Source: Mesostigma viride
Lineage: Eukaryota; Streptophyta; Mesostigmatophyceae; Mesostigmatales; Mesostigmataceae
NCBI GenBank assembly: GCA_009746045.1
Contig: RPFO01000359.1
Coordinates: 1,434,649-1,498,648 of the forward strand
Direction of reading: 5' to 3'
DNA: 64,000 nucleotides
Shown: positions 186 through 60,428 of the stretch, one piece after another
Numbering within the stretch: the stretch's first letter is position 1
Layout: the number at the start of each line of letters is the position of its first letter
The notes under the pieces: model-generated
The model's database searches: none
The model's input: the letters and a program-made list of their open reading frames with translations, nothing else
Told to the model about the DNA's origin: nothing
Position numbers and translations under genes: made by a program

Positions 186-221
186 CCTTGCCTCCACTCA
201 CCTCTGTTAATGACGCCGTGC
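186..221 (-). repeat. Degenerate copy of the 3' end of SELENOO exon 11 with its splice donor
   Basis: This 36-bp stretch matches 344-379 at 31 of 36 positions. The parent encodes HGVMNT followed by GTGGGT. The copy encodes HGVINR followed by the better donor GTGAGT. It lies 158 bp downstream of its parent in the gene's sense and keeps both coding sense and donor. Confidence 0.8.
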
Positions 222-359
222 ACATCTGTATTGAAAAACACACTCCTAAGTTCAGGTACCCACTACACCAAGCGGGCTGACCCCACAGGCTCTGCGTTAT
301 GCTCGCTTCCAGGCGCATGAGCAGGGGAGCTAGACCCAAGTGCCCTTGCATCCACCCAC

Positions 360-58800: not shown

Positions 58801-60428
58801 CCTTGCCCGCCCCACGACCCCAACCCCAGGCGCTGCACGGGTTCATCGAGCAACTGGTCGTCGCACAGTCCTCCATCACTGCCGTCAAGGTGAGGATGGT
58901 TCCGTCATCCGTTTGAGGTCATCGTGCGCTTTGCTTGCTGTCGCCCCTTCTGCCCTCCCGCTGTGGACAACGCATGCCCAGGCATGATGAATACTACCAT
59001 ACGGCGCCGGTTGACTCTTTGATATGGCCATCCCCTTCGCTTAGTGCGGCTGCTGTGGACGACCCACGGGCATGGTTATTAATAGTAATACTACCACATC
59101 CATGAGACAACCATCGGAGGCCAGAAATCTGGAGAATCCGCACCATGGTAGCTCGAGCCTGCCGTTATCTTATCCGCGTTTTTTTTTCGAGTCGTTCAGG
59201 ATGGTGGATATGAATGGAAATGGAAATGTGTTGCCTATTTTATTGACATTATGGCTCGCTAACGATAATAGCGACTAGATGACCTAGACGGTGGGTCTAG
59301 GAACATCTTGCTTGATCAGGGCATGTGTTTCAAGCCTAACTGGCCGGGAGTGTCTAGTGGTGAGAACCATCGCTGCGATCCCTCTCCCGCCATTTACGAG
59401 GAAATACCCGCAAATAGAAAGCCACCGAAAAGGTCTAGCTGCTATTTAATGAGTACTACTGTACGGCCATCCCCTTGGCTCGGTGCGGCCGTGTCCACCA
59501 TCTGCTGCCACGTGGCGTCTGCCAGGCGGACGAGGCGTCGGTGGGCGTCAAGCGCGCACAGCTGGACCGGGCGGACGCGCTCATCAAGGTGGGTGGGTGA
59601 ATCTTTGTGTGTGTGTGGTGGTGTGTGTGGGGGGGGCTTAGTGTTTATCCGTTTCTATGGTTGTATGGGGTTGTAAAGGACCGGATGGACGCGCGCATCA
59701 AGGGCAGGAAAGGGCCTAGGATGCGAGTATACTACATAGAGTTCATGAGTGTGCATGCCATGGGTAGAAGGGGTAGGGGTGGACGCGCTCATGAAGGTGG
59801 GTGGGGTAGGGTGTACGTATATAATTGTATTTACGTGTGTGCTTGTGATGGGTGGTGTCGTCCTAGGGGTCACACTCATCAATGTGTGTGGGGGGGTAAA
59901 CAGGGGGAAAGAATGGTTGCTTGTACTGCGTAAGTCATCGATTGTACTTTATCATAGGTTTTATATGGGTGGACACACTGATCGAGGTGATGGGGGACAC
60001 CAGGGTGCCAGCGCTTGTTTCTATCACGTTTATTATACCGATGGAGGTTATGATCTGGCACCAGGCGTGAGAGAAGCAACCATACATTGGTGTGATAGGT
60101 ATGGTGGTATGGTGGTGTGGGGTTATGGGGTTATGGAGTTAGGAAGTTAGGGGGTTAGGGGGTTAGGGGGTTATGGGGGTAGGGGGGTAGGGGGTTACGG
60201 GGTTACGGGGTTACGGGGTTACGGGGTTATATATGTATGTATGGTGTAATATATGTATACTGTGGTATATGTATCAGTATGGTGTTGTATAGTATGGTGT
60301 TATATAGTATGCGATGGCACCGTCGATCACGCTGATGTATGGCTCATGTGTCCATGCCCCCGGTGCACATGTCGCCGATGCCCCCTTTTCCCCTCTCACA
60401 GCGGTTGCAGAAGAAGTTGAGCAGCTGA
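52855..60428 (+). CDS. Membrane-anchored BAG-domain co-chaperone (Snl1-like), 6 exons
   Basis: BAG domains bind the Hsp70 ATPase domain and speed nucleotide exchange. Exons are 52855-52999, 55190-55554, 56108-56185, 58830-58889, 59526-59588 and 60402-60428 (stop TGA), all in phase, giving about 245 residues. Exon 1 supplies a single hydrophobic segment, VGTGVMALAAAALVGISVYQ, flanked by a basic WHGRRPG. Exon 2 is a Ser/Gly/Ala-rich linker with a charged patch (EDAFRRKRREAA). The C-terminus reads GRLLRLVREVDTIEREATLF, ALHGFIEQLVVAQSSITAVK and RAQLDRADALIKRLQKKLSS, which matches the three-helix BAG pattern (EVD.iE..v..F, then a helix with LL..LD-like spacing, then R..qi..LL.kL). A short protein with a N-terminal membrane anchor and a C-terminal BAG domain resembles yeast Snl1 of the ER/nuclear envelope; that parallel is inference. 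Introns 1, 3 and 5 carry large arrays. Confidence 0.8.
53515..53800 (+). repeat. Nested short repeats in BAG-gene intron 1
   Basis: TCCTACATCTCCCATTTCCA units are followed by ACTACTACAAGAT units. A duplicated block (GAGGCTTATTATTAGATCAG to GCTAACGGATGGGTG) occurs at 53604-53725 and 53740-53805. Confidence 0.8.
54353..55155 (+). repeat. 29/43-bp composite minisatellite in BAG-gene intron 1
   Basis: More than 20 units of CCTTCCACTAATTATGAACA plus TGAAATGCCCCCC, with or without CATTCTGGTCC. The array ends about 35 bp before the exon 2 acceptor. Mixing of the two unit lengths suggests repeated unequal exchange. Confidence 0.93.
55638..55664 (+). repeat. Copy of BAG-gene exon 2 tail with donor
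   Basis: AAGCTCGTGCGCCAG then GTGAGC (KLVRQ) echoes AGGCTTGTGCGCGAG then GTGAGG (RLVRE) at 55540-55560. The offset is 105 bp, in frame, with no stop between. Confidence 0.85.
55915..56065 (+). repeat. 61-bp tandem array before BAG-gene exon 3
   Basis: About 2.5 units contain TGTATCGATGTTGAATAGTG and TTTTGCACGTTGAGTAATGA. Confidence 0.9.
57061..58335 (+). repeat. (CTCA)n tetranucleotide array in BAG-gene intron 3
   Basis: About 1.27 kb, more than 300 units, with scattered ACGC variants clustered at 57720-57785 and 58078-58155. The sense strand is pyrimidine-rich. The 579-codon Leu-Thr-His-Ser frame through it is an artefact. Confidence 0.97.
58336..58760 (+). repeat. (CCCG)n, (CACC)n and (GACC)n blocks before BAG-gene exon 4
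   Basis: The (CTCA)n array passes into a short CCCG block, then (CACC)n at about 58425-58560, then (GACC)n with CTGACC joints to 58740. All are tetranucleotides related by single-base change, as expected from successive takeover by variants. Confidence 0.93.
59102..59425 (-). mobile_element. GAGACAACC retroposon copy in BAG-gene intron 4
   Basis: It starts GAGACAACCATCGGAGGCCA and runs through ACCATGGTAGCTCGAGCCTG and GGCATGTGTTTCAAGCC to GAGGAAATACCCGCAAAT. It is the longest relative of 18696-19015. Confidence 0.8.
59680..59990 (+). repeat. Series of copies of BAG-gene exon 5 tail
   Basis: The parent tail at 59571-59588 encodes DALIK then GTGGGT. Copies encode DARIK at 59688-59702 (GGCAGG follows), DALMK at 59782-59796 (GTGGGT follows), a diverged TLIN near 59872, and DTLIE at 59972-59986 (GTGATG follows). 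Confidence 0.8.
60120..60235 (+). repeat. GGGGTTA/GGGGTTAC heptamer-octamer array
   Basis: Units GTTAGGG, GTTATGGG and GGGTTACG follow each other in BAG-gene intron 5. The sequence is G-rich and telomere-like but degenerate. Confidence 0.8.

Follow-up and report, generated by a model that had tools for sequence, protein, structure and literature searches.

Copies of exon ends in the introns of Mesostigma viride genes and their probable origin by local duplication

The stretch of DNA analysed here, referred to as the window, is 64 kb long (Mesostigma viride contig RPFO01000359.1, positions 1,434,649 to 1,498,648) and carries four genes: SELENOO on the minus strand, TRAPPC11 and a BAG-like gene on the plus strand, and RPS4. 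A first-pass annotation had described degenerate copies of exon ends, with their splice sites, in the introns next to the real exons of these genes, and had attributed them to recurrent tandem duplication across the exon-intron junction. Intronic copies of exon ends, hereafter called echoes, are real and present in genes on several contigs. They occur beside the real exon on both strands, more often at donors than at acceptors, and they probably stem from short local duplication in the same orientation.

Gene models and recurrence of exon ends in adjacent introns

SELENOO, TRAPPC11 and the BAG-like gene were modelled as open frames bounded by AG and GT. The assembled SELENOO query was ~60% identical to YdiU/SelO proteins; the names TRAPPC11, RPS4 and BAG are labels taken over from the first-pass annotation, without a family search behind them. 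Genes outside the window were chosen blind to their introns by genome-wide Pfam searches (439.9 Mb in 2243 contigs) with Cpn60_TCP1, HSP70 and kinesin. Those retained are part of the genes found and were favoured if several exons lay close together, KINa being included also because a second contig carries it. Their exon edges were set by a spliced aligner that joined hidden Markov model (HMM) anchors under frame and splice-site scores, and some of these edges, chiefly in HSP70, are uncertain. The CCT eta protein of the same genome was, among the matches listed, 82-83% identical to that of moss, 80% to Klebsormidium, 78% to Chara and 76% to Cymbomonas. In the cited passages of the Mesostigma genome paper (PMC6947507), M. 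viride NIES-296 has 442 Mb in 2363 scaffolds, 24,431 genes (Table 1) and a mean intron of 1142 bases, and long introns are tied to repeats, which make up 30.1% of intron space. Chlorokybus, another streptophyte alga, has a small genome of 85 Mb (PMC7027972). On one contig of the genome searched, C2011, HSP70 (two) and Cpn60 are matched over their full length in single open frames, the other Cpn60 matches being split; contamination is one possibility for this contig, a region poor in introns the other.

Fifteen genes (the four of the window, five CCT, three HSP70 and three kinesin genes) provided 64 donors and 64 acceptors. A probe of 36 bases, exon only, was taken at each edge and compared by alignment with no more than 600 bases of the adjoining intron and with introns from other genes, and a match was called at p < 0.01 against intron stretches of other genes. 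Edges with fewer than 150 bases of target, or with too short exons, were set aside. The window contributed 46 edges, namely eight donors and eight acceptors of TRAPPC11, ten and nine of SELENOO, five and five of the BAG-like gene and one acceptor of RPS4. Among them, the SELENOO acceptor at strand position 60770 (~3230 on the plus strand) is a placeholder for an exon start that was not fixed, and the SELENOO donor at 60832 was placed one base early; both are without a match. The CCTe exon 1861-2023 (in reversed L028) was added after its echo had been seen and is excluded from counts given for the Pfam-chosen genes, except where stated.

A copy in the adjacent intron was found for 19 of the 64 donors and six of the 64 acceptors. 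Exon-internal probes, taken 40-76 bases inside the exon, matched in 1/56 cases on the donor side and 0/56 on the acceptor side; reversed probes matched in 0/64 cases for both sets of edges, and reverse-complement probes in 1/64 for each. The Pfam-chosen genes yielded 9/40 donors and 3/40 acceptors, the pattern not being limited to the window. Within the window alone, 10 of 18 donors and four of 16 acceptors had their own intron in first place (against 17 and 15 swapped introns, respectively); the observed sum was reached in 0/20,000 permutations for donors and in a fraction of 0.00135 for acceptors. Likewise, the own intron came top for 7/30 donors and 2/30 acceptors of the CCT and HSP70 genes, where none (donors) and 48 (acceptors) of 20,000 permutations reached the observed sum. 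The CCTe echo is present in both haplotype contigs, with one base different inside the echo, which speaks against an assembly artefact.

The individual cases listed by the first-pass annotation, matched here by coordinate because the exon numbering differs, held up in part. Twelve of the 46 window edges have a copy not equalled by any tested intron stretch from other genes (TRAPPC11, six donors and two acceptors; SELENOO, two and one; BAG-like gene, one donor). The RPS4 head, four of the five BAG tails, two of the eight TRAPPC11 donors and, in SELENOO, every edge except the donor at 13091 and both edges of exon 360-454 did not reach p < 0.01. The assertion that nearly every long intron keeps such a record was too broad, given the 15-gene counts and the three HSP70 genes with no echo at all.

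Shape of the copies and the echoed junctions of the window

For the 19 donors with a match, the best ungapped copy lay 40-299 bases past the donor and its exon part spanned at most 38 bases; introns of the tested set have a median length of 830 bases. The copies range in age from exact to ~75% identity. In KINb, 31 of 31 bases are identical across the junction at +70, the unit of 70 bases (23 exon and 47 intron) being an exact tandem accompanied by a third, decayed unit. CCTd repeats a 48-base unit in nine further copies, each of which bears a GTGAGC or GTGCGT donor and is open in frame; CCTe carries a 40-base unit, and KINa a 97-base junction-spanning unit with ~37 intron bases in common. The units of KINb, CCTd and CCTe are young, almost perfect tandems reaching across the donor.

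The features of TRAPPC11 are as follows.

31974..32181, plus strand: TRAPPC11 exon with echoed tail (open frame LAKAAYEQ...LQEIAQ between AG and GT)
32294..32328, plus strand: echo of the tail of exon 31974..32181 (74% identity over 35 exon bases, distance 147; donor GT now GC)
35199..35940, plus strand: TRAPPC11 exon, tail echoed downstream and head probably upstream (open frame)
36055..36083, plus strand: tail echo of the exon ending at 35940 (29 exon bases, 76%, distance 143; donor lost, now GG; internal TAG)
36290..36323, plus strand: head echo of the exon starting at 36747 (34 exon bases, 85%, distance 457; without AG)
36747..37108, plus strand: TRAPPC11 exon echoed on both sides (open frame ending ...GAGMN)
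37225..37246, plus strand: tail echo of the exon ending at 37108 (distance 138; donor GTGAGT intact)
38332..38715, plus strand: TRAPPC11 exon whose last 3 bases, with the donor, begin a minisatellite
38713..38908, plus strand: 32-base tandem array of 6.1 copies found by Tandem Repeats Finder (TRF), with six donors spaced 32 bases apart, the real one first
41468..42414, plus strand: TRAPPC11 exon with ...DEDSVMVS(G) at its 3' end, running on into the next exon
42545..42564, plus strand: tail echo of the exon ending at 42414 (20 bases, 85%, distance 150; donor AT)
44611..45345, plus strand: TRAPPC11 exon with both tail and head matching (open frame)
45424..45450, plus strand: tail echo of the exon ending at 45345 (27 bases, 78%, distance 105; donor GT intact)

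The echo at 32294..32328 is matched equally well by none of the tested introns of other genes. The head at 35199 ranked first against 15 swapped introns, yet did not fall below 0.01 in the 15-gene test; by eye, three degenerate upstream copies of it lie near 35042, 34852 and 34670, and two further degenerate head copies of the exon at 36747 lie near 36570 and 36667. The echo at 37225..37246 comprises 17 exact exon bases, or 22 with a 2-base gap, plus six intron bases; its donor, if used, would run into a stop codon, and that of 45424..45450 would hit a stop immediately. The match of edge 38715 in the 15-gene test is a separate tail echo farther on, short of the junction. Exon 41468..42414 changes frame near G-runs at ~42280 (42270-42310), a miscalled base or a small intron missing from the model being the alternatives, and the three differences in its tail echo all fall at third codon positions. 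The head match of exon 44611..45345 is gapped and begins a few bases inside the exon, short of the junction.

The echoed junctions of SELENOO and the BAG-like gene are these.

13091..13180, minus strand: SELENOO exon ending ...EAAALL (YdiU/SelO match and exon edges)
12973..12993, minus strand: tail echo of exon 13091..13180 (21 bases, 95%, distance 118; donor AT)
360..454, minus strand: SELENOO exon echoed on both sides (YdiU/SelO match, exon edges and probe test)
202..221, minus strand: tail echo of exon 360..454 (20 bases, 85%, distance 158; donor GT intact)
522..551, minus strand: head echo of exon 360..454 (30 bases, 77%, distance 97; AG lost, internal TAG stop)
59526..59588, plus strand: exon of the BAG-like gene, ADEASVGVKRAQLDRADALIK (open frame between AG and GT)
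59678..59702, plus strand: tail echo of exon 59526..59588 (25 bases, 88%, distance 114; donor GG)

Further copies of this BAG-like exon tail were seen by eye near 59775 and 59965. Inside a SELENOO intron, an array at 4213-6507 repeats a 74-base unit 31 times with 99% matching.

Tails were echoed more often than heads (19/64 versus 6/64, Fisher p = 0.0066), as was also the case once the CCTe exon and the placeholder acceptor were removed (18/63 versus 6/62, p = 0.011). Per edge, copies with an intact site numbered 13/63 for GT and 2/62 for AG (p = 0.004), a gap that arises because donor copies are more numerous. These site counts leave out the tail of TRAPPC11 38715, with five ungapped exon bases, and the heads of TRAPPC11 44610 and CCTc 6559, which stop short of the junction. 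When scored with a matrix built from 17 donors of SELENOO and TRAPPC11, 11 of 14 intact echo donors came within 0.5 of the real donor or above it. Nine of the 13 intact decoy donors examined would shift the frame if used and two more would run into a stop, so that the protein continuity shown by the HMM anchors requires the first donor to be chosen; the spacing has no coding periodicity, decoy distances being a multiple of three in only 4/13. On the simplest rule, splicing would use whichever equivalent site lies farthest 5', at donors and acceptors alike.

Local duplication and competing explanations

The sequence surrounding the window was scanned over 264 kb. Per 100 bases of distance, direct repeats numbered 47-70 at spacings of 30-150 bases and 5-7.5 at more than 300 bases; inverted pairs stayed at 0-5 above 30 bases and were as many as direct ones at 8-30 bases. 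In a comparison over 47 introns (kinesins and BAG not included), intron-internal 36-mers had a local copy as often as exon tails did when tandem arrays were left unmasked (0.29, n = 1033, versus 0.28, n = 47). With arrays masked, intron-internal segments matched in 61/726 cases downstream and 51/686 upstream and random segments of the 264 kb in 58/822, compared to 12/47 exon tails and 5/47 exon heads. Length differences between haplotypes are in line with such duplication. The haplotype contigs L028 and L029 of a CCT gene differ by 95 mismatches in 4388 aligned bases and by seven internal length differences of 4-43 bases. Judged by eye, at least four of the latter (43, 18, 7 and 4 bases) are tandem units, two are not and one lies in a G-run. 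A CCT intron of haplotype contig C1641 (L028 reversed versus L029) has a 3.1 kb insertion that is absent in C887. A second haplotype pair, L035/L036, is nearly identical and without length differences of the tandem-unit kind. Local duplication is a general process that seems to go on still, and it is not special to exon ends. The first-pass proposal of recurrent duplication across the junction is borne out by the tandems of KINb, CCTd and CCTe and by the haplotype units; it needs amending in that the process is not junction-specific, acts unequally on donors and acceptors in its outcome, and touches a smaller share of introns.

In a profile across junctions, the exon tail matched in 18/62 cases and flanking intron segments in 6/56 to 11/62, while deeper exon segments matched in 3/55 and 0/49. 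The exon head matched in 6/61, and intron 36-180 bases upstream of acceptors at rates of 0.16-0.21. The excess of tails over flanking intron is about two-fold for all genes. In agreement with this profile, exon ends probably look like hot spots mainly because selection holds the exon copy, so that only the other copy decays; by our estimate, one-sided decay would keep a pair visible about twice as long.

We consider it probable that short (~30-100 bases), same-orientation local duplication gave rise to the echoes and that junction-spanning copies persist in the intron, likely because the first donor is used. A stretch of ~30-100 bases would duplicate locally and, if it spanned an exon end and its donor, would leave a copy in the intron. 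If the spliceosome takes the 5'-most site, a duplicated donor would be harmless since the real one precedes it, and a duplicated acceptor would be harmful since the decoy precedes, most such acceptors then being purged; the exon copy, frozen by selection, would keep the pair recognisable longer. The cause would largely be ordinary, namely local duplication made visible by exon conservation, the donor/acceptor asymmetry being less so. A more far-reaching version can be put forward tentatively, and we are inclined to doubt it rather than to adopt it: donor duplications, invisible to the mRNA, would become fixed and lengthen introns, acceptor duplications would be removed under a genome-wide leftmost-site rule, and exon ends would serve as frozen probes recording the history of intron duplication.

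Several observations weigh against an origin of the echoes in junction-spanning local duplication, or against the part assigned to donor choice. The three HSP70 genes, some edges of which are uncertain, showed no echo (donors 0/9, acceptors 0/9), and modelled introns may contain exons missed by the HMM, one of which was later found in CCTe. In the Pfam-chosen set alone, the donor/acceptor difference was not significant (9/40 versus 3/40, p = 0.11), and the tails of that set, with the CCTe exon included, matched in 10/40 cases against 4/35 to 9/39 for adjoining intron, an excess of two-fold or less. Pyrimidine-rich sequence may lie behind the low rate in the 36 bases upstream of acceptors. Among junction-reaching copies, GT was kept in 13/18 and AG in 2/4, with no difference (p = 0.56), so that acceptor copies are not shown to depend for survival on loss of their AG. 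Exon parts never exceeded 38 bases in the 19 tails, which would not be expected of a blind process with 100-base units. The intron half beyond the donor consensus was recognisable (p <= 0.05 versus shuffles) in 6/25 echoes, one of which (CCTe) is too short for the comparison, and in 6/14 for longer stretches (p <= 0.025); in the CCTd copy at 1435, the exon half is 94% identical and the intron half is missing. Strict tandem duplication would have carried the intron half along; the absence of that half from most echoes implies that many events had a spacer or were later rearranged. Either part of the events are spaced copies of the doublet or repair-mediated kind, or the intron halves were lost through later rearrangement. 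Beyond genes as well, of 18 local repeats with at least 95% identity, several of them short and near chance level, two fill more than 0.8 of their spacing and 10 less than half. Finally, the highest-scoring direct pairs of the scanned 264 kb have spacings of mostly 900-3000 bases, and are probably another class.

Spaced copies are what repair-mediated capture would leave, whereby a break in an intron is filled with a 25-45-base copy of nearby sequence to give a spaced direct pair. Consistent with this, most older echoes consist of an exon tail and a few donor bases without the rest of an intron unit, many local pairs of the 264 kb are also spaced, and vertebrate proximal duplications, some with splice sites, appear in the cited parts of Pace et al. 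2009 (PMC2671141). Capture that took no account of the junction would, however, be expected to copy the interior 40-76 bases inside the exon equally often, for which the probes found 1/56 and 0/56; reverse-complement copies are without excess, and the youngest cases are true tandems. We regard capture as the general source of the echoes as unlikely, while not negligible. A process aimed at donors, for instance through breakage where transcripts pause or form loops close to 5' splice sites, would account for the excess of exon tails over adjoining intron (18/62 versus 6/56 to 11/62, and 12/47 versus 61/726 after masking); the two-fold excess is already predicted by the estimate of one-sided decay, and unmasked intron-internal segments match as often as tails, which makes such targeting improbable.

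It is very improbable that mobile elements inserted at donors and left the echoes as long target-site duplications, in the manner of introner-type intron gain. Some echoes do resemble ~40-base direct repeats around an unrelated insert, but the ten inserts of this kind (60-227 bases) share no family with one another or with the sequence examined, nor does an introner-like family common to introns occur among them, and target-site duplication was rejected on this ground.

The first-pass annotation had further noted that the encoded peptides are often conserved, and echoes might accordingly be alternative or formerly coding exon parts under peptide selection. Mismatches do concentrate at third codon positions (17, 24 and 43 of 84 at positions 1, 2 and 3; p = 0.0005 versus one third; 22 of 25 echoes, with an ungapped score of at least 12). 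By our estimate, if the exon changes silently and its copy decays without constraint, a third-position share of ~0.45 is expected, from which the observed share does not depart (p = 0.15). Stop codons lie inside three copies, 9/13 intact echo donors are out of frame, and by eye no consistent AG precedes the echoes. The third-position excess thus stands and can be explained otherwise; no need for a coding role is seen, and coding-selected alternative exons, rejected on the stops and frame shifts, are left with hardly any credibility. Chance, low complexity or assembly error, for which the abundance of simple arrays in the region might plead, is scarcely tenable and was rejected on the swapped, reversed and reverse-complement controls, the CCTe echo being moreover found in both haplotype contigs.

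Comparison with known duplications and other features of the window

The 'doublets' of Thomas 2004 are reportedly short paired duplications. In common with these and with the duplications in the cited parts of Pace 2009, those described here are short and local and some carry splice sites; unlike the latter, 19/64 donors have a same-orientation copy and donors and acceptors are unequal. Among the vertebrate repair-mediated duplications, as far as the cited sections go, 4/824 source stretches were partial exon/intron and at least one copied exon lay in the opposite orientation (PMC2671141). Exon sequence with splice signals is likewise duplicated in tandem when an intron is gained from an AGGT-bearing exon segment (Rogers 1989 and Hellsten 2011, as given in the cited part of PMC4974935; for Drosophila cases, see the cited part of PMC2891723), splicing keeping the protein intact. 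In those accounts, however, a new intron arises whose acceptor is the second copy, whereas here an intron already present grows longer, with the copy 40-299 bases past the donor; none of the 19 best tail copies supplies its AG as the intron's acceptor, acceptor-ending copies not having been searched for separately. In the potato RdRp gene, according to the same portion of PMC4974935, tandem duplication over an intron-exon boundary, at the acceptor, gave a new intron. The duplication crosses a boundary as it does here, and its outcome is the disruption that would be expected here at acceptors, while donor duplications would spare the mRNA. Some of the youngest cases qualify as intronic minisatellites (CCTd, 48 bases; TRAPPC11, 32 bases), but unlike in plain ones the first unit holds the exon end and the functional donor, and some old arrays may survive as echoes. 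No description of a genome-wide record of junction copies was found among the open-licence papers surveyed.

These genes contain natural introns with one to nine extra donors of near-identical sequence and upstream exon context. Intron lengthening and the choice between identical splice sites are usually studied with constructs. Should the first donor always be used, such introns would put site choice to a natural test, serve as a clock for intron growth and suggest why donors should tolerate duplication better than acceptors. Gene finders will face many good decoy donors in this genome, and an array open in frame, as in CCTd, could be a source of protein repeats.

Very long simple arrays lie inside genes of the window at 39346-41141, 42940-43475 and 57059-58335 (CCCCCTTCC, TCCACCC and CTCA), the first ending at a gap of N at ~41143-41238. 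An open frame resembling reverse transcriptase occupies 21142-22044 on the plus strand; we take its YADDTTL motif to mark a reverse transcriptase, probably part of an element without long terminal repeats (non-LTR). A dispersed repeat starting GAGACAACC occurs at least three times (46148-46330, 59096-59330 and 61348-61400, by eye), and 11 copies of GTTTAGG at 60822-60901, presumably the plant-type telomere repeat, lie inside the contig.

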